A DNA stretch of 64,000 nucleotides from Rahnella victoriana. GTDB lineage: Bacteria > Pseudomonadota > Gammaproteobacteria > Enterobacterales > Enterobacteriaceae. The translations under genes were made by a program, and so were the position numbers. The DNA lies in assembly GCF_004330295.1 (NCBI RefSeq), contig NZ_SJOJ01000025.1, forward strand, positions 17,638 to 81,637, written 5' to 3'. Position 1 is the stretch's first letter, and every line of letters begins with the position of its first letter. This document shows positions 6,423-55,983 of this stretch, piece by piece. A model generated the notes under the pieces. It was not told the origin of the DNA. It saw only the letters and a list, made by a program, of their open reading frames with translations, and made no database searches.

Positions 6423-6531
6423 GTGCCAAAAGGGTACATTTTCAAATCACGCTTTATTCATAAATGGGTACCCGTTCTTTAACCCCCAAAGACTGTATTT
6501 TTCATTTTTATACCTGTTTTTAAGAAAACTG

Positions 6532-43154: not shown

Positions 43155-43181
43155 AAAACCCGTCAGGGGAAACGGGTTTTT
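43155..43181. terminator. Terminator-like hairpin
   Basis: AAAACCCGT (43155-43163) pairs with ACGGGTTTT (43172-43180), then T. Works in either orientation. Confidence 0.65.
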
Positions 43182-43330
43182 GTAGGTTACGAGGGGAACT
43201 CGCGAGGTATCTGTAGGTTGCTACAGAGAGGTTCACTATACACGTCATGTGTGACGAAATTGTGTAGGAGAATTCTGTATCTCACTCAACCTGAGCGCGG
43301 GAATTGCCCTTTCTTCAGGCAATAAAAAAG

Positions 43331-45059: not shown

Positions 45060-45442
45060 ATCTCTATCTCCTTTAGTTAACCGTTATTAAGCGTAGTCGA
45101 GATTTTAAAATCTGGGTGTTAATACGGAATAAAAAACGGCCATGCTGTAAGAATATGTTAATAATACGGATTTCTCTTAATTAACTGCCCTGAGGAGATC
45201 GCGGTTTTTTTAGTGGGCCGTTTTATTTCAAATACAACATCAGCAGGTAATAAATAATCGCAAGTTACGTTAAATAATAATGTTGCCGTGAGATTATTCC
45301 TACAACGAATGTAATCCTCCTGACATATTTATTCACTTATTTACGTCATAGTTATTTCATCCTTCAGAGACCGCTATCCGGGTCCGACGGGAAGGAATAA
45401 AAGACGCTTATTTTAATTGATGTGCAGATGGATGATAGAATT
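45060..45442. other. 383-bp upstream region of the fimbrial operon
   Basis: Very AT-rich. It contains the palindrome at 45100-45113 (DUF883 side) and the shared-architecture promoter at 45299-45352 (fimbrial side). No gene seen. Confidence 0.5.
45299..45352 (+). promoter_or_regulatory. Shared promoter module C (fimbrial operon)
   Basis: CCTACA (45299-45304), 15 bp, CTGACA (45320-45325), 21 bp, CATAGT (45347-45352). Boxes and both spacings equal those of modules A (51466-51519) and B (55875-55928). With CATAGT as -10, transcription would start near 45359, 84 nt before the pilin ATG, and the other boxes lie near -57 and -36, as for an activator overlapping the -35. Confidence 0.7.
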
Positions 45443-46006
45443 ATGAAAAAATTAAATATTGCTTTCGCAGCGACCACATTGGCGCTGATTTTGGGTCAGC
45501 AGGCATACGCGGCAGATGGCACCATTACTTTTAATGGTGAAGTTACTGACGTGACCTGTATTGTTTCTGCGGGTACAGGTGCGGATACTACTATCAAGTT
45601 GCCTACCGTTGCGGTAAGCGCATTCGGCAGCCTGGCCAATACCACCGCGGGCGCAACGCCTTTTGCTATCTCTTTGACCGGTTGTGCGAGTACGGCTGGC
45701 GCGCTGGCACAGCCAAAAAGCGTAGCGGTGTATTTCGAGCCGGGTAGCAATGTTAATGCGGACGGGCGTTTGAACAACACCGTTACGACCGGTGGCGCAA
45801 CCAACGTTGATATTGCGCTCTATCAGGCTTCTGCGAATACCAAACCACTCGTATTAGGTCAGATCCCTTCTGCCGGATACTCCACTATTTCTAGCACTGC
45901 GCCTGCAACCACCATGAATTTCCTGGCGAAGTATTATTCCACAGATGTTGCTGTAACTTCCGGTTTAGTTTCTTCCAACGTCACTTATTCCATTGTTTAT
46001 CCATAA
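45443..46006 (+). CDS. Major fimbrial subunit
   Basis: A 187-residue pilin from ATG 45443 (the frame is open 7 codons upstream but the signal peptide begins MKKLNIAF). Sec signal cleaved after AYA (about 23), then FimA-like domain: GTITFNGEVTDVTCIVSAG, a second Cys in LTGCAS (disulfide pair), and the C-terminal TYSIVYP strand with penultimate Tyr for donor-strand/chaperone contact. It polymerises into the fimbrial shaft. First gene of a four-gene chaperone-usher operon; followed by a GC-rich hairpin. Confidence 0.9.
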   Translation: MKKLNIAFAATTLALILGQQAYAADGTITFNGEVTDVTCIVSAGTGADTTIKLPTVAVSAFGSLANTTAGATPFAISLTGCASTAGALAQPKSVAVYFEPGSNVNADGRLNNTVTTGGATNVDIALYQASANTKPLVLGQIPSAGYSTISSTAPATTMNFLAKYYSTDVAVTSGLVSSNVTYSIVYP

Positions 46007-46020
46007 GTATTGTTAGTTAA

Positions 46021-46042
46021 CCGCGCGGGTTTATCCGCGCGG
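46021..46042 (+). repeat. Hairpin between pilin and chaperone genes
   Basis: CCGCGCGG-GTTTAT-CCGCGCGG, 15 bases after the pilin stop, without a T-run. Such hairpins stabilise pilin mRNA or attenuate distal genes, giving excess shaft protein. Confidence 0.65.
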
Positions 46043-46069
46043 ATCTGTTATTAAAAAGGATTTTGTATC

Positions 46070-46807
46070 ATGACAAGGTTATTTCATGGCAAACGTATGC
46101 ACATTGCCGTGCTGCTCTTCAGCTTTTTTATTCTCCCTGTGACCGCGCAGGCCTCTGTCGTCGTGACAGGAACCCGGGTTATTTATCCTGAATCGGCCCG
46201 TGAAGTGACCGTAAAACTCAATAACGGAGGCAGTACTCCTGCTTTAATCCAATCATGGATTGATAACGGCGACCCGAAAGCCACGCCTGACGTTGCCAGT
46301 TCACCTTTTATTCTGACACCGCCTATCGCGCGCATCGACAGCCATAAAGGTCAGGTGTTACGCATTCGTTTTGACGACGATAAAACGCTTCCACAAGATA
46401 AAGAATCTATTTATTGGTTGAATATTTTAGAGTTGCCACCTTCCGTCGAGGACGGCTCGAATAAACTTAAAATCGCTGTGCGTACACGTCTCAAGATGTT
46501 TTACCGCCCTTCAGGATTACAAGGGGATGCGGATAAAATGGCGGGGAGTCTGGAGTGGACAATGGTGCGCAGCGGAAATAAAACCACACTGGATTGTTAT
46601 AATCCCGGTGCTTATTACGTGTCTTTAAATAGTGTAAAAGCGGGAGGTAAAAAAGTAGAATTAAATATGAATAATGGCACTATTGCACCAAAACAAACTC
46701 AGCATTTTGAAATGGATAACAATGCGACTCCCGGAGGTTCGATTAATTACACCACGATTAATGACTATGGTGCGGTTATGACATGGGATTCAACATTAAA
46801 AAATTAA
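46070..46807 (+). CDS. Fimbrial periplasmic chaperone (PapD-like)
   Basis: A 245-residue protein: signal peptide ending AQA|SVVV, then the two Ig-like domains. GTRVIYPESAREVTVKLNN is the first-domain signature, the subunit-anchoring Lys is in LKIAVRTRLKMFYRP and the SIYWLNILELPP strand is conserved. It folds and caps pilins by donor-strand complementation until they reach the usher. Confidence 0.93.
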   Translation: MTRLFHGKRMHIAVLLFSFFILPVTAQASVVVTGTRVIYPESAREVTVKLNNGGSTPALIQSWIDNGDPKATPDVASSPFILTPPIARIDSHKGQVLRIRFDDDKTLPQDKESIYWLNILELPPSVEDGSNKLKIAVRTRLKMFYRPSGLQGDADKMAGSLEWTMVRSGNKTTLDCYNPGAYYVSLNSVKAGGKKVELNMNNGTIAPKQTQHFEMDNNATPGGSINYTTINDYGAVMTWDSTLKN

Positions 46808-46870
46808 AATAATATTCCTCTCACAAAATATCTGAGAATTTTTCCTTGGTGGAAAAAGCGCGGGTTACTT

Positions 46871-49426
46871 ATGAATAAGCCAGTTTTTACCTTAAAAAGT
46901 CACTGCTGTATTAAATCTGACTGCCAACTTCATCCTCTGAAAGTTGCGGTTCTGATGGCGGCAGGTCTCTGGCAAATACCTTTCAGTGCTCATGCGCAAT
47001 CGGGTGCCGATATGCTCATCGCTAATTTTGATAAATCTATGCTGTGGGGTCAGGGAGCTCGCAGCATAGACCTGACGCGTTATGCCGAAGGAAATCCTGT
47101 TGAACAGGGGATCCAGACGCTCGACGTGACGATTAATACGCGCCAGGCTGGCATGTTTGACATCAAATTCAACGAGGGTGATCGTCCAGGGCACGCGAGA
47201 CCTTGCCTGAATACCACGTTGCTGGACAGTTTGGGTGTCAATCTTGAGAAATTAGCGACGGTCGCGGGTTCCATCAACAGCGAAGGATGTCTGGACTGGA
47301 CGAAAATTCCTGACGCGACTTACGAGGTCAGCACGGGTGATCAGTCGCTGACACTCAGCGTGCCACAAATCTATATGCGCACGGATCCGCATGGTTACGT
47401 CAGCCCTTCGCGCTGGGAAAATGGGGTGACTGCCGGTTTTATCGATTATGCCCTGAATGGTTATCAAAATAGCCGGACAGGCCACACTGACCAGAGCCTG
47501 TATGCCTCGGCCAATATGGGACTTAATTTCGGAGCCTGGCGCTTGCGTCAGCGTTCTTCCCTTAATTGGAACGACGAAAGCGGTCACAAGCTCGATGCTA
47601 TCAGCACCTATGTGCAGCGGGATATCGACGTGCTTCGCGCTCAGCTGACAATGGGTGACACATTCAGCGACGGAGATCTGTTTGATTCTGTTTCAGTCCG
47701 TGGCGTGCGACTTGCCTCAGATGATCGGATGTTGCCTTCTTCGCAAACGAGCTACGCGCCCGTGGTGCGCGGAATTGCGGCCACCAACGCGCGGGTCACT
47801 ATCCGTCAACGCGGTTATGTCATTTACGAAGCGACGGTTCCGCCGGGAAATTTTGAGATTTCAGATTTAAGCCCTGGTACTAACAATGGCGATCTGGATG
47901 TCACGGTGACGGAAGCGAATGGTGAAGAAAAACGCTTTATCGTGCCATTTTCTTCTATTGCACGTTCACTGCGTCCCGGCGTCTCACGCTTTACCACCAC
48001 AGCTGGCGTGGTCCGCAACCTTCAGTACAACAATCAGCCGCACCTTGTTCAGGGCACCTGGCAACACGGTTTAACGAACATGGTGACGCTCTACGGCGGG
48101 CTGACAGGATTTGAAGAATATAAAGCCGCCCTGGTCGGGATGGTGCTGGGTACCGAGTGGGGGGCAGTGGGGCTGGACGTTACTCAGGCCCATACCGACC
48201 TGGGACAACAGAGTTTCTCTGGCCAGTCCGTGCGTGTCAGTTATAACAAGATCCTCACGGATGTGGGCACCGACGTCACTCTGGCGGCTTACCGCTATTC
48301 AACGGATGGTTACTTCGGTCTCAGTGATGCCCTGACGGCGGTTGATCAGGTTAAGGCGCAGGGTGACGATACGGCTGACAATATCCGCCGTCTGAAAACC
48401 CGCAGTGAAGTCGTGATCAACCAGCGGCTTACCGACACGGATTATGTGTATTTCAGCGGTTCCCGGCAGGATTACTGGAATGGCAGCGGTTACGATAATC
48501 AGCTGCAGGCCGGTTATACCAGAACATGGAGCTGGGGAAATACCAACCTCAGCGTGGCTCGTGCTCAGGATCCTTATGGCAAAGACGATGACAACATTAT
48601 GTTGAGTGTCTCGGTTCCCTTTGGTGCATCAGGATACCTGACCAGTTCTGTCAGTCGGGATAGTGACGGGGGCGCTAATCTGCAAACGTCCTTTAATTCC
48701 AACGCCGGAGAAAATAGTCGCCTGAGCTATGGGCTCAGTGCCGCCTACGACAGAGCCAATGACGCCACCCGTAGCAAAAGCCTGAGCAGTAATGCGCAGT
48801 ACCGGACATCTTTCGGCACACTCAATGGTTCCCTCAGTGAAGGGACTGATTTCCGTCAGGTTTCAGCGGGTATGAGCGGTTCTGTGGTTGTGCATCCTAT
48901 GGGCGTGACCTTCGGGCAAAGTCTGGGTGACACCATCGGGATCATCAGCGCGCCGGGAGCCAAAGGGGCTCAGGTTCTGAATGCGCAAAATGTGTCACTG
49001 GATAGCAGTGGTCAGGCCGTGGTGCCTTATCTTTCAGCCTACCAGCGAAACGAAGTGGCACTTGACCCGAAAGGGTTGTCTGACGATATCGAACTGAAAA
49101 ATACCAGCCTTGAAGTCATACCTCGCAGCGGTGCCGTGATGCTTGTGCAATATGACACCCTCAACGGTCATGCCATTTTGATCCAAAGTCGTCGTGCCGA
49201 TGGTACGGCGTTGCCATTTGGTGCCAGCGTTTTCGATTCTACGGGGCAGGAAGTCGGAATCGTCGGACAGGGTGGGCGTATATTTGCCCGCCTGAAAGAA
49301 AATAGCGGAAAACTGTTTATTACCCTGGGAGATAAAGAAAAACCACTTTGCATAATTCCTTATCGCTTAAATCCACAGGATGAGAATAAAAAGAATATGG
49401 TGAAAATAAATGCCGTTTGTAACTGA
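46871..49426 (+). CDS. Fimbrial outer-membrane usher
   Basis: An 851-residue usher with the standard order: signal peptide (cut after about AHAQ, residue 43), N-terminal chaperone-binding domain with a Cys pair (about 110-130), 24-strand pore with the central plug RGIAATNARVTIRQRGYVIYE (about 300-385) and two C-terminal plug domains (AFGASVFDSTGQEVGIVGQGG) with Cys pair at the end. It secretes and assembles the pilus. 63 bp separate it from the chaperone gene. Confidence 0.95.
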   Translation: MNKPVFTLKSHCCIKSDCQLHPLKVAVLMAAGLWQIPFSAHAQSGADMLIANFDKSMLWGQGARSIDLTRYAEGNPVEQGIQTLDVTINTRQAGMFDIKFNEGDRPGHARPCLNTTLLDSLGVNLEKLATVAGSINSEGCLDWTKIPDATYEVSTGDQSLTLSVPQIYMRTDPHGYVSPSRWENGVTAGFIDYALNGYQNSRTGHTDQSLYASANMGLNFGAWRLRQRSSLNWNDESGHKLDAISTYVQRDIDVLRAQLTMGDTFSDGDLFDSVSVRGVRLASDDRMLPSSQTSYAPVVRGIAATNARVTIRQRGYVIYEATVPPGNFEISDLSPGTNNGDLDVTVTEANGEEKRFIVPFSSIARSLRPGVSRFTTTAGVVRNLQYNNQPHLVQGTWQHGLTNMVTLYGGLTGFEEYKAALVGMVLGTEWGAVGLDVTQAHTDLGQQSFSGQSVRVSYNKILTDVGTDVTLAAYRYSTDGYFGLSDALTAVDQVKAQGDDTADNIRRLKTRSEVVINQRLTDTDYVYFSGSRQDYWNGSGYDNQLQAGYTRTWSWGNTNLSVARAQDPYGKDDDNIMLSVSVPFGASGYLTSSVSRDSDGGANLQTSFNSNAGENSRLSYGLSAAYDRANDATRSKSLSSNAQYRTSFGTLNGSLSEGTDFRQVSAGMSGSVVVHPMGVTFGQSLGDTIGIISAPGAKGAQVLNAQNVSLDSSGQAVVPYLSAYQRNEVALDPKGLSDDIELKNTSLEVIPRSGAVMLVQYDTLNGHAILIQSRRADGTALPFGASVFDSTGQEVGIVGQGGRIFARLKENSGKLFITLGDKEKPLCIIPYRLNPQDENKKNMVKINAVCN

Positions 49427-49472
49427 TTACACTGGAGTTAATTCTTCTGGAAATAAAAGGTAATAAGTCATC

Positions 49473-50528
49473 ATGAAAGATTTATTGGCTCTGAAAGTAT
49501 TGCGGATCCTGCTGCTGGCACTGGCATCCTTATGGACGTTGCCCGTTATTGCAGGTGTGTCCTGTACGTCAAACCCTGCAACTGCCACTTTAACGGCCAC
49601 CATTCCGGCAGTCAGCACCGTGGTTACGGTCGGCAGCCCGGGGAATCGCTATTTAACGGACTGGTTTTCTGCACCCGCATCAGGCTACAGCAGTCTCTAC
49701 ACAGGATGTGTTGTAGGAAATATTACTCTGCAAGGGAAAATTGCATTGCAACCCGCCGGGAGTAGCATTGATGGTTATGCCATCTTCAAAACTAACGTTG
49801 ATGGGATAGGCATTATTGTTCAGGGGCGTAACCGTAACAACACGGGGCCAGCGCTAGGTACAGATTGGGTTGATATCATTACAGGAAGTACCAGCTACTG
49901 GGATGGAAGTTTTACAGCACGGCTGGTTTCAACAACAACAACCATTCAGTCAGGCTCGGTGACATTACCCGGAACAATCGGTTACTTACGCATCGTCGAT
50001 AAAAATGATGTGGCGGGCAGCAGCACTATCATTCCGGTCAATCTTGTGGTCAGCGGGAGTATGACATTTACGTCGCAAACCTGCACTGTGAGCGCGAACT
50101 CTAAAAACATTGGGGTGTCCTTAGGCAAAGTGAACAGCAACGCGATCACCACCGGCGGGAGTTCTCTGGTCCATTCACCCTTCACGATTAATCTGGACTC
50201 CTGTTCTGTCACGTCAGGCTTAAGCGTCAATATGACGTTCACGGACAATAACAATCCGGCCAATACCAGTAATATCCTTTCGCTGACGAATGATGGTAAG
50301 CAGGCGACCGGTCTTGGGATCCGCATTATCAATCAGGCCACCCAGCAACCCGTTAGTTATGGTCCTGATAGCGCGGTAGTCGGAAATCCCGGGCAATTCA
50401 GGGTGACGACAACCACCGGCGGAAGTCTGTCTATTCCCTTTATGGCGACCTATATTAAATCAGGCTCAGAGCCGATTGTCGGAGGAACGGCAAATGGTGT
50501 GGCGACTTACACAATGAGTTATCAGTAA
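49473..50528 (+). CDS. Fimbrial tip adhesin / minor subunit
   Basis: A 351-residue protein: signal peptide ending VIAG|VSC, a receptor-binding-like N-terminal domain (about 25-190, Thr/Ser/Gly-rich, Cys pair), then a pilin domain (about 200-351) with TFTSQTCTVSANSKNIGVSLG, a matching Cys and the C-terminal YTMSYQ strand. Two-domain build and last position in the operon indicate the tip adhesin. The receptor is unknown. Confidence 0.87.
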   Translation: MKDLLALKVLRILLLALASLWTLPVIAGVSCTSNPATATLTATIPAVSTVVTVGSPGNRYLTDWFSAPASGYSSLYTGCVVGNITLQGKIALQPAGSSIDGYAIFKTNVDGIGIIVQGRNRNNTGPALGTDWVDIITGSTSYWDGSFTARLVSTTTTIQSGSVTLPGTIGYLRIVDKNDVAGSSTIIPVNLVVSGSMTFTSQTCTVSANSKNIGVSLGKVNSNAITTGGSSLVHSPFTINLDSCSVTSGLSVNMTFTDNNNPANTSNILSLTNDGKQATGLGIRIINQATQQPVSYGPDSAVVGNPGQFRVTTTTGGSLSIPFMATYIKSGSEPIVGGTANGVATYTMSYQ

Positions 50529-50581
50529 ACCGGTCCTTCGAAGATTGATGACTAAAACTGGGTGATACAAAGCGTGCAAGA

Positions 50582-50621
50582 ATAAATATTGAAGCTTAAT
50601 TATTAAGGCTTCAATATTTAT
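50582..50621 (+). terminator. Long AT-rich hairpin ending the fimbrial operon
   Basis: ATAAATATTGAAGC (50582-50595) pairs perfectly with GCTTCAATATTTAT (50608-50621), with further TTAA/TTAA pairing in the loop. No T-run; probably an mRNA 3' end shared with the convergent regulator gene. Confidence 0.6.
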
Positions 50622-50693
50622 CTGGAGGAGATTTTAAGGATGTCACTCGGAGGTCATTAATATGACATGTGGATATGAAATATTTGCAACAAC

Positions 50694-51317
50694 CTAAAAA
50701 TTTCGCGCCACAATCCCCGAAAGTTCAATCACATTCTTGGCATTCAGTTTTTGCATTAATCGCATTTTATAGGTGCTAACCGTTTTATTACTGATTAATA
50801 AGTCTCTGGCAATTTCTTTATTGCTTACGCCACGGGCAAGGTAACGCAGAACAGTGACTTCACGGTTGGATAACAAAGTTAATAATTCCTGTTCGCGAAG
50901 TTTTGTTCCGGGGCTGTGAAAGTGAAGAGAGTCTGTTGTCGGAAAACAGCTGAACCCCATCTGTACCGCCTTGATGGCCCCAATGAGTTTGTTCAGATCG
51001 TTGTTTTTACTGACGAAGCCATTAGCCCCGACACGAATGCAGCGCGCGATGTAAATATCCGGGTTAAGGCCGGTAAGAACAATCACCTTTGCGTCAAGGT
51101 TTGAATCCTTAAGACGCTTAATCACTTCAAAACCGTCTAACCCCGGCAGGTCGATATCCAGCACGATGATGTCGGGATGCAATTTTCGCGTCAACTCCAG
51201 TGCATTGATCCCATTGTTAGTTTCCCCCACCACCCGATATTTTTCCTTTTCCAGTAATATATTCAGAGCAAGGCGGATAATGGGTTGGGCGTCTACAATA
51301 AGAATATTACACATCAT
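50694..51317 (-). CDS. FimZ-like NarL-family response regulator
   Basis: A 207-residue receiver plus LuxR-type HTH protein. The receiver keeps the phospho-acceptor Asp54 (VLDIDLPG), a switch Thr (VIVLTG) and Lys (FVSKNND), but the second acid of the Mg-binding pair is Ala10 (VDAQP instead of VDDHP); FimZ has a similar change there. The HTH (about 150-205) reads LSNREVTVLRYLARGVSNKE and KTVSTYKMRLMQKL. ATG 51314 fits the AGGA site slightly better than 51317. It likely activates the adjacent fimbrial operon and is expressed from module A. Confidence 0.88.
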   Translation of the reverse strand: MMCNILIVDAQPIIRLALNILLEKEKYRVVGETNNGINALELTRKLHPDIIVLDIDLPGLDGFEVIKRLKDSNLDAKVIVLTGLNPDIYIARCIRVGANGFVSKNNDLNKLIGAIKAVQMGFSCFPTTDSLHFHSPGTKLREQELLTLLSNREVTVLRYLARGVSNKEIARDLLISNKTVSTYKMRLMQKLNAKNVIELSGIVARNF

Positions 51318-51640
51318 GGTTCCTAAGGTTTGGATTAATTTTTCTGACCTGCTAGGACTGATATCGTCCGGTGTGAATCTTCTAAAAGAATACTGCCCTG
51401 ATATCCCGCGTTAATCAGGGATAGACGTTATGTAGTAAAACCACATAAAAAATATTGATAAAACCAGTATGACAGTATTATTTGTAGGGGTATGTCAGGC
51501 TTGTCCTGAAAGCTGTAGGGCATTTCTGACGGCGCTGTCAGTTAAGTCAGAACAAGATTTCACTCATCTGCGCGGGCACTGGGTTCACAGCTATAATGTT
51601 TAAAGAAAATCTGAGCGGATCATGAAACGGGAGAAAGACG
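51318..51640. other. 323-bp divergent regulatory region between two response-regulator genes
   Basis: It contains promoter module A (51466-51519), directed leftward, and a perfect TATAAT (51592-51597) directed rightward without a good -35, 44 bp before the GTG start at 51641. No gene. Confidence 0.6.
51466..51519 (-). promoter_or_regulatory. Shared promoter module A (FimZ-like gene)
   Basis: Read leftward: CCTACA (51519-51514), 15 bp, CTGACA (51498-51493), 21 bp, CATACT (51471-51466) preceded by TGT as an extended -10. Same boxes and spacings as modules B and C. The start would be near 51459, about 140 nt upstream of the regulator. Downstream of CTGACA there is one extra CCTACA. Confidence 0.7.
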
Positions 51641-52270
51641 GTGAAAAGTGTTCTGATTGTCGATGACCACCCCATGATACGTTTCGCCGCCCGGTTACTG
51701 CTGGAGCAGCATGGTATGAAGGTAGTCGGTGAAACGGATAACGGTATTGAAGCCCTCAGCCTTGCCCGGACGATTCAACCGAATATCGTGATCCTTGATA
51801 TCGGTATACCCAAGCTCAATGGACTGGAAGTCATCGACCGCTTACGGGCACAGAATCCCGCGATTAAAGTGCTGGTTCTGACCTCCCTCAGTCCGGCGGT
51901 ATATGCGCATCGCTGTATCTTAGCGGGCGCGTCGGGCTTTGTGAGTAAAACTAATAACCTGAATGAACTGGCCAGCGCCACCAATGCTGTACTTTCCGGG
52001 TTCCGGTATTTCCCAGATACGACGAGGGTTACGCCTGACGCATTTACGGAGGCATCGCAGGAATTACCATTAATACATTCCCTTTCCGGGCGGGAAATCA
52101 CTGTGCTCAAGTATTTAACCGCAGGGCTGACAAATAAAGAAATTGCCCGTGAAATGCTGATCAGTGATAAAACGGTCAGTACTTATAAATCCCGCCTTCT
52201 TGTCAAGCTGAATGCCAGAACGCTGGTAGATCTCATTGAGTTTGCCAGCAGAAACAGCGCCAGCCTTTAA
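51641..52270 (+). CDS. EvgA/BvgA-like response regulator
   Basis: A 209-residue NarL-family protein starting at GTG 51641 (GGGAG upstream). The receiver is complete: Asp8-Asp9 (VDDHP), phospho-acceptor Asp53 (ILDIGIPKLNG), Thr in VLTS and Lys in FVSKTNN. HTH at about 150-205 (LSGREITVLKYLTAGLTNKE). It is clearly paralogous to the FimZ-like regulator on the other side. It precedes the hybrid kinase by 22 bp, forming a two-component pair. Confidence 0.92.
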   Translation: MKSVLIVDDHPMIRFAARLLLEQHGMKVVGETDNGIEALSLARTIQPNIVILDIGIPKLNGLEVIDRLRAQNPAIKVLVLTSLSPAVYAHRCILAGASGFVSKTNNLNELASATNAVLSGFRYFPDTTRVTPDAFTEASQELPLIHSLSGREITVLKYLTAGLTNKEIAREMLISDKTVSTYKSRLLVKLNARTLVDLIEFASRNSASL

Positions 52271-52291
52271 TGAATTTTGCATAGGATCGTA

Positions 52292-54352
52292 ATGCCAAAC
52301 CTTGAACAGTCCTTTCCCTGGGAAATCTGGCTCGCACTGGCACTGATATTATTTGTCAGCGTTGTCCTGTGGAACGGTTATCTGTTGCGACAAATACGTC
52401 TGCGTAAAAAGGCCGAAGATAAACTCGCTGAGCAGATGAACTTCCAGAAAGAATTTTTCAATATTATTCCCCATCCTGTTTATGTCCGCGATCGGGAAGG
52501 TCGATTAGTGACGGCCAACAGCTGTTTTTTTCAGGCGACGGGCGAACAGCAGGAAACTTTGCTGGGTAAGAAGATCACTGAAGTAAGCTGGTTTTCTGCA
52601 GAGGAAGGACCGTTTTATCAGACGCGGTATCTTGAGGCTTTAGCTGACGGAAAAAACATTCTGGAAGACCTCAGGTTAAAGATAAAAGACGAGTTCATTG
52701 ATGCAGAAGTCTGGCTAATACCCTACAAAAATGCGCAGGGCGAAATCTCAGGCATGATAGGTGGCTGGACAGATGTCACCGAGCGTTACCGGCTATTGAA
52801 CGAGGTGGAACATGCCAGACAACTGGCAGACGATGCCCGTGAACTGGCTATTCGCGCTAATCAAGCCAAAGGGATATTTCTGGCGACCATGAGCCATGAA
52901 ATTCGCACACCGGTCAGTGCCGTGCTGGGAATGCTTGAACTGACACTCAGGCAAGCAGAGAAAGGGCATCTGGAAAAAGAGGCGATTGAAACCGCTTACG
53001 ATTCGGCTAATTCGTTGCTGGTGTTATTGGGCGACGTTCTGGATCTGGCCAAAATTGAATCGGGACAATGGGTCTTATCCGCGCAAAGATGTAATCCCCT
53101 GCACCTCACGCAGTCAGTTATCAAAGTCTTTAGCGGGCTGGCCGGTGAAAAGAATATTTCATTAGCGTTCGTCACTGAAGGGCCTGTTGGCCACGATGTT
53201 CTGCTGGACGCCCAGCGTTTTCGGCAGGTACTCAATAATCTGATCAGCAATGCTGTAAAATTTACCGACACAGGTGGCGTCATCGTCACGTTAACGGCTG
53301 AGAAAGCTGATGAGGCGAATACCCTGCTGACTTTATGCGTGCAGGATACGGGAACAGGTATCGCGGTTGAAGATCAGGATAAGCTGTTTAAATCCTACAG
53401 CCAGCTTTACTCCGGCGCACAACAGCATCGCGGCGGCACGGGGCTGGGGCTGGTGATTTGCAAAGAAATCGTTGAGATGATGGGGGGTGACATCAAACTC
53501 ACCAGCCAGGCCGGAAAAGGCACACGCATCGATGTCACACTTAAGGCTCACTGTCCTGGATCTCCGGCGGAAGAAAATACCATTTTAGCTCCGCAGAACG
53601 ATGCGTCTGCCGATGGTTACCCGCTCAATGTCTTGGTGGTTGATGATCACCCTGCGAACCGTTTGCTGCTTCGAAAACAACTGGAATTCCTCGGGCATCA
53701 CGTATGGCTGGCGCAGGAAGGGGAGGAAGCGTTTTCACACTGGAAAAAACAGTCATTCGACGTGGTTATCACGGACTGCAATATGCCCGGCATAAACGGT
53801 TATCAGCTAACCCGGTGGATCCGTGATTCTGAGCGTGAGCAGGGCCAGAAAACTTGCGCTATTTTGGGGCTGACGGCCAACGCGCAATACGAAGAAGTCG
53901 AACGGTGTCAGCTGGCGGGAATGGATACCTGCTTATTTAAACCGTTAAATCTGCAACAGTTACGCCAGCAACTCGAAATCCTGCACAGCGATCCTTTGCC
54001 CGTTCCCTGCTGTGACCCCGACGGACTGGAAGCACTGACCGGGGGAAATCGTTCCGCCACGGTTCAGCTCATCAATGGGATCATCAAAGCAAATCGTGAC
54101 GACCTGAATAAAATCCGGCTCGCGGATGAGCAGGGGGATAGAGAAAAGGTGGCTGAAATCACTCATCGTATAAAGGGAATTGCGAATATGCTGACGGCTC
54201 AGCCCTTAGTGAGCCGGTGCGAGGAATTAGAATTGCAATGCGGCACCGCAGCAGACCTGACATCTGCAATTGCTTTACTGAGTGATGCGATGAACAATAT
54301 AGATGACACTCTGAACGCCTGGGTGAGCCAATATAAGCAGAACAACGAATAG
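52292..54352 (+). CDS. BvgS/EvgS-like hybrid sensor kinase without periplasmic domains
   Basis: A 686-residue kinase. ATG 52292 (AGGATCGTA upstream) is preferred over an in-frame TTG. Order: one TM helix (about 12-32), a BvgS-type linker and PAS (about 50-165, PHPVYVRDREGRLVTANS), HisKA with His202 (MSHEIRTP), HATPase (N-box NNLISNAVKF, G boxes DTGTGIA and GGTGLGL), receiver with Asp495 (ITDCNMPG) and Hpt with His625 (THRIKGIA). The BvgS/EvgS Venus-flytrap domains (normally about 500 residues) are absent. It signals by phosphorelay to the regulator at 51641. Confidence 0.92.
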   Translation: MPNLEQSFPWEIWLALALILFVSVVLWNGYLLRQIRLRKKAEDKLAEQMNFQKEFFNIIPHPVYVRDREGRLVTANSCFFQATGEQQETLLGKKITEVSWFSAEEGPFYQTRYLEALADGKNILEDLRLKIKDEFIDAEVWLIPYKNAQGEISGMIGGWTDVTERYRLLNEVEHARQLADDARELAIRANQAKGIFLATMSHEIRTPVSAVLGMLELTLRQAEKGHLEKEAIETAYDSANSLLVLLGDVLDLAKIESGQWVLSAQRCNPLHLTQSVIKVFSGLAGEKNISLAFVTEGPVGHDVLLDAQRFRQVLNNLISNAVKFTDTGGVIVTLTAEKADEANTLLTLCVQDTGTGIAVEDQDKLFKSYSQLYSGAQQHRGGTGLGLVICKEIVEMMGGDIKLTSQAGKGTRIDVTLKAHCPGSPAEENTILAPQNDASADGYPLNVLVVDDHPANRLLLRKQLEFLGHHVWLAQEGEEAFSHWKKQSFDVVITDCNMPGINGYQLTRWIRDSEREQGQKTCAILGLTANAQYEEVERCQLAGMDTCLFKPLNLQQLRQQLEILHSDPLPVPCCDPDGLEALTGGNRSATVQLINGIIKANRDDLNKIRLADEQGDREKVAEITHRIKGIANMLTAQPLVSRCEELELQCGTAADLTSAIALLSDAMNNIDDTLNAWVSQYKQNNE

Positions 54353-54371
54353 CGCGTTCAGTATCAGATGT

Positions 54372-54917
54372 TCATTTTACAGTGAAAAACCCCGCAAACC
54401 TGTTGAGTTCCTTCAGGTTTTTCACGCCGAATTTTCTGCACACGTAGTACCTCTGCGAATAAATAGTTTTGGCTGATCCGCCTAACTCACTGGCAATATG
54501 TCTGACACTTTTGCCTTTCAATGACTCATTAATAATGTAGTGCTGTTTATCTGAAATGACGACTGGTGGTGCTGGCAAACAGGTCACCGTATGAAGAGTT
54601 TCCAGAATATTTCCCAAAACATCTTTCACGGGTGCATGAATATCGAGGTAACTATAAATGCAGGATAAAGAAGGGCTTTTATTGTTGCCATCGCGACTCA
54701 TTGCGATAATTTTTGGGTGTCCATGACATTTCATTATCCTGATAACCGGTTCTGGTATTCTTTCCGAGGCATCAATGAGGATGATATCATTTTCAGTGAA
54801 CGGTATAATCCAGTCTTCATGCAGGAAGTTCATATCAGTGACATCCAGCCCCGCTGAGTTAAATAATAATTTAATACCATAATTTAAATAGTGGTTTCTG
54901 CTAATGAGATAAATCAT
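54372..54917 (-). CDS. LuxR-type HTH regulator with receiver-like N-terminus
   Basis: A 181-residue protein from ATG 54917 (GGGAG upstream; the frame extends 42 codons further but into the EAL gene). The C-terminal HTH (about 120-175) reads ESLKGKSVRHIASELGGSAKTIYSQRYYVC and KFGVKNLKEL. The N-terminal 115 residues resemble an inactive receiver (IILIDASERI at the Asp position region). It follows the EAL gene after 52 bp, so c-di-GMP breakdown and this regulator are co-expressed. Confidence 0.8.
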   Translation of the reverse strand: MIYLISRNHYLNYGIKLLFNSAGLDVTDMNFLHEDWIIPFTENDIILIDASERIPEPVIRIMKCHGHPKIIAMSRDGNNKSPSLSCIYSYLDIHAPVKDVLGNILETLHTVTCLPAPPVVISDKQHYIINESLKGKSVRHIASELGGSAKTIYSQRYYVCRKFGVKNLKELNRFAGFFTVK

Positions 54918-54969
54918 TTTTAAACTCCCATCCAAAATGGATAAAAACAGATGAATAAATTCATGCGGT

Positions 54970-55830
54970 TTACATTCCGATATAACGATGAATAAACTCG
55001 CTGACCTGCATAGGCTCTGCCAGATAATCGCCCTGCAATCCATTAATTCCTGCCTTGCGTAACAGCGGCATTTGTTCGTATGTCTCTATGCCATCAGCGG
55101 TAACAGAAACACCCAACCGGGAAGAAAGGGTCATAATTGCATCGATGACATTTTCATAAACCAACTGTCCGTTAATGGCCTGGGTGAGGTCTTTATCAAT
55201 CTTAAGGGCAGAAAGGCCGATGTTTTCTATATATTTCAGTGATAAGGAGCCCGCGCTAAAGTCATCAATGGCTAACCTGATGTCGTTTGCGACCAGGTGC
55301 TCAATGACCTGCATCGTCTTATCATCGAAATTCAACGCTGTTCTCTCAACCACTTCCAGCACAAGCGTGGCGGCATCCTTAAAAGTTCTGCTGAAATGAA
55401 GCGCTGCGTTGATCACGTCGTGTGAAGATATCTGCCCGGCAGTAATATTGAAGGAGAAATAAAAGTCCTCTGGCAGATAATTCATTATGTTTTCAAAAGA
55501 CTTTTCAATTTCCTGAAACAGATGACAGATAATATCATCCCTGTAGCGACTGGCTTCCATTTCATGAATATATAAAACCGGCGAGTTATAATTATTCTCA
55601 GACTTCACCCGCAGTAAAATCTCACATCCTTTCAGCGTGAAACCATCCGCGCTAAAAACAGGCTGGATAAACGGATGAAATTCATCGCGCTTAATTGTTT
55701 TTTGCAAAACCCTCTCCTCAGCCACGTGCTGTAAGTTTTTTTTATTTCTGGAAATGACGTCGGCCAGCGAAAGAAGCGCGTTATAAATAATCATTACAGA
55801 GGCCCTTAACTGACGATCTGACAGAGACAT
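54970..55830 (-). CDS. EAL-domain c-di-GMP phosphodiesterase
   Basis: A 286-residue stand-alone EAL protein without signal or GGDEF domain. Motifs: FIQPVF, GCEILLR (ExL as E-I-L), NITAGQ, EVVERT, IDDFSAG (Asp pair), LKIDK, DGIET and LQGDYLAEP; the metal- and base-forming residues appear kept, so activity is plausible. It would lower c-di-GMP, affecting the switch between adhesion and motility. Promoter module B lies 45-98 bp upstream. First gene of a two-gene unit. Confidence 0.9.
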   Translation of the reverse strand: MSLSDRQLRASVMIIYNALLSLADVISRNKKNLQHVAEERVLQKTIKRDEFHPFIQPVFSADGFTLKGCEILLRVKSENNYNSPVLYIHEMEASRYRDDIICHLFQEIEKSFENIMNYLPEDFYFSFNITAGQISSHDVINAALHFSRTFKDAATLVLEVVERTALNFDDKTMQVIEHLVANDIRLAIDDFSAGSLSLKYIENIGLSALKIDKDLTQAINGQLVYENVIDAIMTLSSRLGVSVTADGIETYEQMPLLRKAGINGLQGDYLAEPMQVSEFIHRYIGM

Positions 55831-55874
55831 TCATCTGTGAAGCTAATGACCACACAGACTTTGTTGGAAACAAG

Positions 55875-55928
55875 AGTATGGCAATATCGCTGAGAGAGAT
55901 ATGTCAGGGAGGGGCTAAAAGTTGTAGG
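55875..55928 (-). promoter_or_regulatory. Shared promoter module B (EAL operon)
   Basis: Read leftward: CCTACA (55928-55923), 15 bp, CTGACA (55907-55902), 21 bp, CATACT (55880-55875) preceded by TGC, an extended -10. Identical layout to modules A and C. The start would be near 55868, about 38 nt before the EAL ATG at 55830. Confidence 0.7.
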
Positions 55929-55983
55929 AAATTTCTGCACTAACATTTTTTCTATCTGAAAATGCCAGCGCAGGTCGTGGGAT

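Follow-up and report, generated by a model that had tools for sequence, protein, structure and literature searches.

A promoter pattern shared by fimbrial, regulator and EAL genes suggests a local BvgA/EvgA-type regulon in Rahnella victoriana

Gene content of the cluster

We analysed a 64,000-nucleotide stretch of Rahnella victoriana DNA (assembly GCF_004330295.1, contig NZ_SJOJ01000025.1, positions 17,638 to 81,637, forward strand), referred to here as the window; all positions are those of this stretch. The window carries a fimbrial operon beside genes for two response regulators (RR1 and RR2), a hybrid kinase, a LuxR-type protein and an EAL-domain protein. A preliminary description of this DNA had reported one promoter architecture repeated before the fimbrial operon, RR1 and the EAL gene. 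Our analysis makes it likely that these three sites are activator-dependent promoters of one local regulon of the BvgA/EvgA type that is read by the cluster's own regulators. The genes of the cluster are as follows.

45443-46006, + strand: fimbrial major subunit, FimA family (Pfam PF16970; start as in the matching plasmid annotation)
46070-46807, + strand: fimbrial chaperone (PapD_N, PapD_C)
46871-49426, + strand: outer membrane usher (Usher, PapC_N, PapC_C)
49473-50528, + strand: fimbrial tip protein, predicted adhesin (Fimbrial domain; weak MrkD receptor-binding match, below cut-off)
50694-51317, - strand: RR1, receiver-GerE response regulator of the NarL type (EvgA-type recognition helix; receiver pocket VDAQP, not VDDHP)
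51641-52270, + strand: RR2, receiver-GerE response regulator (EvgA-type recognition helix; VDDHP intact)
52277-54352, + strand: EvgS-like hybrid kinase (PAS, HisKA, HATPase, receiver and Hpt domains; no periplasmic half)
54372-54917, - strand: LuxR-type (GerE) protein (GerE; start as in the matching plasmid annotation)
54970-55794, - strand: EAL-domain protein with the variants DGIET and DDFSAG (EAL domain, YahA alignment; start as in the matching plasmid annotation)

The LuxR-type gene lies 52 bp past the EAL gene on the same strand. RR1 is 100% identical on the Rahnella victoriana plasmid NZ_CP089920.1 of strain JZ-GX1 (722,843 bp), and all three sites are unchanged there. From this match we infer that the window cluster is carried on a plasmid; the source assembly consists of 85 contigs. 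The circuit is not mentioned in the available part of the JZ-GX1 genome paper (PMC9020876), and no published study of it was found by title among the matches listed.

A promoter-like pattern occurs three times in the cluster

The window was scanned for CCTACA-N15-CTGACA-N21-CATANT with up to 3 mismatches allowed. Exactly three matches were obtained, all with 0 mismatches, at 45299-45352 (+), 51519-51466 (-) and 55928-55875 (-), confirming the three exact sites with identical spacings of the preliminary description. Each site is directed at the gene that it precedes. Shuffled windows gave a mean of 0.15 matches at the same tolerance and three were reached in 0/100. With the predicted flanking features described below the sites are as follows.

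45289-45352, + strand: site 1, before the fimbrial operon; inverted heptad 45289-45302 with its right arm within CCTACA 45299-45304, CTGACATA 45320-45327, -10-like CATAGT 45347-45352
51466-51529, - strand: site 2, before RR1; inverted heptad 51529-51516, CCTACA 51519-51514, CTGACATA 51498-51491, extended -10-like TGTCATACT ending at 51466
55875-55938, - strand: site 3, before the EAL-LuxR pair; inverted heptad 55938-55925, CCTACA 55928-55923, CTGACATA 55907-55900, extended -10-like TGCCATACT ending at 55875

Across the whole assembly (5,309,719 bases, 85 contigs), a scan with up to 2 mismatches returned the trio and a single 2-mismatch match (C26:8013). The 14-letter core CCTACA-N15-CTGACATA, allowing 1 mismatch, found the trio alone in the R. 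victoriana genome and one 1-mismatch match each in 3 of the 13 other genomes of the genus; the reversed control of the core gave 10 matches across the 14 genus genomes. At family level, with up to 1 mismatch, only 1 of 295 genomes had a match, namely the source genome, and none of the 294 others did. The same spacing was thus not spread over many unrelated genes in the genome or the family, and the pattern is restricted to the cluster, which supports the interpretation in the preliminary description.

When the three sites were anchored on CCTACA, 22 of 74 downstream columns were identical in all of them (mean of 6.0 and maximum of 16 in 20,000 shuffles), and the longest unbroken identical run was the 9 bases CCTGACATA (shuffle maximum 5). 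Upstream, AGA begins 8 bases 5' of CCTACA in every site. Because these further columns are identical, the common motif exceeds the pattern described earlier and can be written AGA-N5-CCTACA-N-C-N12-CCTGACATA-N17-G-N-CATA-N-T. The conserved G two bases 5' of CATA is consistent with an extended -10 (TGN). A scan of the three site regions for normally spaced sigma-70 promoters found none, a weak negative as shuffles averaged just 0.5-1.6. Leaders of about 38-140 nt had been proposed; with its start at 55794 and transcription beginning about 7 nt after CATANT, the EAL leader would be about 73 nt rather than 38.

Other occurrences of the box were noted in the window. Site 2 holds a second CCTACA (51483-51488, -) 31 bp past the first that is absent from sites 1 and 3, and a near-perfect inverted repeat, CTGACAGCGCCGTCAG (51526-51541, -), overlaps its left arm. 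At 43181-43268 (-) three CCTACA occur in 90 bp, spaced 51 and 31 bp apart; they precede a small lipoprotein-like open reading frame (ORF) near an IS4-family transposase gene.

The first box is found upstream of EvgA-type regulator genes

To place the first box we used a sample of 92 regulator genes, reduced to 76 by dropping duplicates and upstream regions below 200 bp and to 74 by excluding the window's own RR1 and RR2 from the upstream counts. In the 250 bp upstream of the 28 closest EvgA-like regulator genes from other loci, the top 7-mer was TCCTACA, present before 10 of 28 genes against 0.38 expected, and the top two 6-mers were TCCTAC and CCTACA. Forward and reverse counts of CCTACA were 11 and 3 in these 28 genes, 1 and 1 in the next 28, and 0 and 0 in 18 distant controls. 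Grouped by recognition helix, CCTACA lay upstream of 12 of the 39 regulators whose helix is EvgA-type (STYK) and of 0 of 35 others (Fisher 2e-4). After similar upstream regions were collapsed the counts were 11 of 38 and 0 of 23 (Fisher 0.004).

In E. coli K-12 CCTACA can be seen before both ydeP and safA, CTTACA lies before frc, and the emrK-evgA interval holds CCTACA on the reverse strand (TGTAGG). EvgA is reported as a regulator of ydeP that also binds inverted repeats at yfdX and at yfdW (frc) (PMC3720670). No paper giving the letters of the EvgA consensus was found among the matches listed, and the part of PMC4283999 that was available mentions the EvgA site without letters. The preliminary description had likened CCTACA to an EvgA-type box, and both the K-12 promoters and the top 7-mer before the 28 EvgA-like genes bear this out.

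The box also precedes other genes at these loci. It was found before a FimA-family gene in Pantoea (L112:5695), before autotransporter genes in two genomes (G177, L115:6634, with a pertactin domain; G304, L169:13579) and, in G253 and G024, before a gene for an EamA transporter. Of the 11 loci fetched, one (L168) had no listed CCTACA and another (L170) had just one that was not before its regulator. The box, a regulator and a neighbouring candidate target gene, mostly a surface one, occur together repeatedly. A second EvgA-like regulator-kinase locus with fimbrial genes was found in the source genome itself on contig C57 (L167 1978-16421). Its regulator is 45% identical to RR2 and has CCTACA boxes both before its own gene and before the fimbrial gene run, the latter box being CCTACACCTGTAG (L167:6372) ahead of the ORF at 6521 that heads the run. 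The EAL protein of this contig retains EGVET and is 28% identical to that of the window.

The first box has a probable left arm and a probable partner at the -35 position

The primary site of BvgA in Bordetella is an inverted heptad, TAAGAAATTTCCTA (PMC7250471). We measured inverted-repeat symmetry, 7 bases each side, around 19 CCTACA sites of relatives. These were hand-chosen, leaving out coding-region occurrences (with the exception of L160:8852, whose ORF ahead of the regulator is doubtful) and also L112:4506, L113:15450 and L170:13492. With the centre just before CCTACA (offset -3, the BvgA centre) 74 of 133 pairs were symmetric against a null of 39.0, a value reached in 0/4000. Restoring the three additional sites gave 84/154 (0/4000) and removing near copies gave 56/98 (0/4000). 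A control of 10 coding-region CCTACA of the relatives showed no symmetry (700/4000). To judge from this symmetry, CCTACA forms the right half of an inverted heptad whose geometry agrees with that known from BvgA. Compared with the BvgA primary site, the window sites agree at 10, 11 and 12 of 14 positions, and outside CCTA at 6, 7 and 8 of 10. The preliminary description had treated CCTACA as a complete box; it is probably just the right arm, and the AGA left arm had been missed. The relatives also had a weaker symmetry at offset +8 (87/4000), the E. coli arrangement, which would fit monomers alternating along the DNA. Together these data indicate that regulators of the EvgA/BvgA type have a DNA code in common, TCCTACA plus an inverted left arm, and that this code goes with the recognition helix.

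The second box, CTGACA within CTGACATA, is invariant in the three sites and lies a 21-bp step from the first, a spacing based on three sites within one cluster. It has C--ACA in common with CCTACA. The relative G162 carries a second, perfect CCTACA exactly 21 bp on, and four other relatives have CTGAC, CTGTC or CTGCC at 22 bp. BvgA dimers are placed every 22 bp with the nearest abutting the -35 (PMC7250471). The preliminary description had taken the paired boxes, two helical turns apart, as the mark of a dimeric activator replacing the -35; the phasing and the -35 position of the second box were supported, while CTGACA was weakly supported outside the cluster. In E. coli K-12, about 240 bp before sfmA (L110:1960-1979), we observed TTTAAGAAATACCTGACAAT, a TAAGAAA left arm followed by CCTGACA, which contains the window's second-box word; the cryptic sfm fimbriae adjoin fimZ.

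Orthologues of the cluster were sought in order to compare promoter DNA. Orthologous proteins at 70-73% numbered 13, and the four named ones were all from Buttiauxella. When their DNA was sought, the general genome contigs gave 56 loci, the best at 37% over a part, the 392 family genomes (E 1e-55) gave the source genome only, and 7 genomes of one other genus reached 46% at best. Among plasmids a single record exceeded 60%, the Rahnella plasmid; the viral contigs gave 7 loci that were helix-turn-helix fragments, and the E. coli genomes gave no match.

Predicted properties of the signalling proteins

RR1 and RR2 both contain the recognition helix KTVSTYK, and the nearest solved structure of each is EvgA. 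Both score below the cut-offs of the EvgA model (NCBIfam NF007419, cut-off 251; RR1 172.2, RR2 174.1) and the FimZ model (NF007403, cut-off 271; RR1 177.7, RR2 163.6), although FimZ, at 177.7 bits, is the best curated model for RR1. Upstream CCTACA was found for 0 of 14 regulators with the SAHK helix. Membership of RR1 and RR2 in FimZ was rejected on the scores below cut-off and on the SAHK-helix genes lacking CCTACA. The earlier label of RR1 as FimZ-like was too loose for a protein that falls below both cut-offs and has a recognition helix of the EvgA/BvgA type. The cluster is best described as a predicted BvgA/EvgA-type circuit that is not a member of the EvgA or FimZ families.

The two regulators differ in the receiver pocket. 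RR2 has the acidic pair (VDDHP), as do 12/12 of the 70-73% relatives covering the position, whereas RR1 reads VDAQP, also in strain JZ-GX1. Losing this pocket aspartate would weaken metal binding by the receiver. RR2 is the likelier entry point for phosphate because the pocket aspartate of RR1 is lost.

The window kinase is EvgS-like with a score below the EvgS cut-off and has no periplasmic Venus-flytrap sensor. In 6/8 comparisons the alignment starts at its own residue 4-23 against residue 519-550 of the relatives. The kinase thus lacks their periplasmic half of about 520 residues; the plasmid annotation is even shorter, with its start at window 52436.

Catalytic EAL phosphodiesterases carry the motifs ExLxR, N, E, DD, K and EGVE and the loop DDFGTG. 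Aligned with YahA, the EAL protein keeps the catalytic positions except that EGVET is DGIET and DDFGTG is DDFSAG. It has no receiver domain (Pfam), and a search for relatives at E 1e-20 returned none but itself among 829 candidates. The preliminary description had predicted coupling of fimbriae to cyclic di-GMP (c-di-GMP) breakdown: the EAL gene does share the promoter pattern, while breakdown itself is uncertain because the protein departs at two catalytic motifs. For the LuxR protein the sole NCBIfam match was a weak one to MctR. As a marker it was found in 3/392 family genomes, two of these just 25-29% identical.

Discussion

The reading that we favour, and consider probable, is that the cluster's own regulators read all three sites as activator-dependent promoters of a single BvgA/EvgA-type regulon. 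The kinase, having no sensor in the periplasm, would receive its signal via the PAS domain and would phosphorylate RR2. Phosphorylated RR2 would occupy tandem dimer sites, namely the inverted heptad (centre about -63) and, replacing the -35, the weaker second site CTGACATA (about -36), and the bound regulator would contact RNA polymerase at the extended -10 (TGN-CATANT). First RR2 and then RR1 would activate expression of the fimbriae, of RR1 and of the EAL-LuxR pair. Synthesis of RR1 from site 2 would provide positive feedback. A delayed arm would consist of the LuxR protein and the EAL protein, the latter acting either enzymatically or as a c-di-GMP effector in the manner of BvgR.

Several results weigh against this reading. 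Upstream CCTACA is missing from 27/39 STYK regulators and RR2 has none in forward orientation, while in relatives it is usually the regulator gene of the regulator-kinase pair that has the box in front. The receiver aspartate is missing in RR1. Taken by themselves, the three window sites have borderline heptad symmetry (11/21, 180/4000), and orthologous promoter DNA outside R. victoriana was not found in the collections searched. A weight matrix built from the relatives ranks the window sites only 3, 8 and 12 within the window. Averaged over 18 relatives (L166:10407 being excluded as a near copy of L165) the second-box signal is small, 2.0/6 against a mean of 1.53 with a standard deviation of 0.28. 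Because of this small signal we grade CTGACATA as probably, rather than certainly, a genuine second site.

The weight matrix was also tried as an independent finder of the three sites. On average 0.75, 4.55 and 8.85 places in shuffled windows scored as high as the three sites; it was rejected as too weak and no support was drawn from it.

An outside regulator could read the sites instead, for example the EvgA-like protein of contig C57, which has CCTACA boxes of its own and whose half-sites, taken alone, resemble those of the window, or another activator. We regard this as unlikely, as the C57 sites lack CTGACATA at 21 bp and the three-element pattern is confined to the window cluster. Quite unlikely as a full account is that one promoter was copied within the cluster, so that the likeness is mostly ancestry and neither the second box nor the -10 would have to be contacted by a regulator. 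Copying may explain part of the likeness because similarity remains outside the 17 named columns, where sites 2 and 3 agree at 37/78 positions (P 0.0002) and sites 1 and 2, less so, at 31/78 (P 0.007). However, sites 1 and 3 show little extra likeness (27/78, P 0.10) and the named columns are perfect in all three. The extra likeness could equally reflect a longer operator, and copying is compatible with joint regulation.

A Salmonella-type fim regulon, with a FimZ orthologue, an EAL protein like STM0551 and a LuxR protein like FimW, would match the parts list beside a fimbrial operon and the best curated model of RR1. In Salmonella STM0551, located between fimY and fimW, reduces expression of fimA and fimZ (PMC3487979). 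A regulon of this type is nevertheless very improbable here, since RR1 is far under the FimZ cut-off, the SAHK-helix regulators lack the box, the LuxR protein matches only MctR, weakly, and the cluster has its own kinase whereas FimZ is termed an orphan regulator (PMC11316696). That the pattern, which was chosen by eye after reading the sequence, arose by chance and that the genes have their real promoters at other places is scarcely credible given the shuffles, the shared columns that had not been listed and the sites' orientation towards genes.

Our best reading of the regulatory logic is that the promoters place the cluster nearest to BvgASR, in which a regulator drives adhesin, itself and an EAL protein, and not to the Salmonella FimZ regulon. 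BvgA autoregulates bvgAS. BvgA, a NarL-type regulator, activates adhesins including fimbriae and the EAL-like bvgR (PMC7250471, PMC12805831), and BvgR is described as lacking catalytic residues (PMC12805831). The predicted inverted-heptad sites of the window, their putative dimer step near 22 bp down to the -35 and an EAL gene as probable target resemble what is described for BvgA. Unlike BvgASR, the window has two regulators, a 21-bp step, a kinase without periplasmic half and a LuxR gene after the EAL gene, and its circuit is local whereas the BvgASR regulon is genome-wide. Of these differences, the kinase without its periplasmic half is one departure from a BvgASR-like scheme; a second departure is that RR1 has lost an acidic-pocket aspartate.

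By logic the Pseudomonas Roc and cupD systems come next. In Roc (RocA1, RocA3, RocR) and RcsB-PvrR, EvgA-type regulators likewise lie beside or act on chaperone-usher (cup) fimbriae; RocA3 activates cupB and its own gene, with EAL proteins in opposition (PMC12051241, PMC2696094). Their EAL proteins are response regulators, in contrast to the window EAL protein, which has no receiver and shares the fimbrial promoter pattern. With E. coli EvgAS the cluster shares the nearest structures, the recognition helix, the CCTACA half-site and an EvgS-like kinase. It differs in that E. coli EvgA is 38% identical, scores fall below the EvgA and EvgS cut-offs, E. coli CCTACA pairs with a downstream TGTAAG arm rather than mainly with an upstream AGA arm, and the E. 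coli targets are acid and efflux genes, not fimbriae. The Salmonella fim system (FimZ, FimY, STM0551, FimW) resembles the cluster in its fimbrial operon, NarL-type activator, EAL protein and LuxR-type proteins (PMC3487979, PMC11316696), and differs in having no cluster kinase for FimZ, in the score of RR1 below the FimZ cut-off and in a SAHK helix that goes without CCTACA.

Overall, the earlier interpretation was partly supported. One extension of the favoured reading is doubtful, though conceivable: the cluster may act as a self-contained adhesion latch on a plasmid, made of BvgASR-like components, in which the sensor-stripped kinase signals through RR2 to the three promoters and RR1, its acidic pocket being broken, acts as a phosphorylation-independent amplifier and holds the circuit on until the co-expressed EAL-LuxR brake accumulates. 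If so, phosphorylation would just start the response and promoter-level feedback would hold it.

If the favoured reading is right, the cluster would activate surface attachment at the same time as an amplifier of it and a predicted brake linked to c-di-GMP, and the three-site pattern becomes a testable local regulon. Adhesin, regulator and EAL protein under one pattern would then represent a design that recurs, and in this cluster the kinase is simplified and the second regulator altered. As the TCCTACA code lies before adhesin genes in several enterobacterial loci, unannotated adhesin regulons may be findable by the code.

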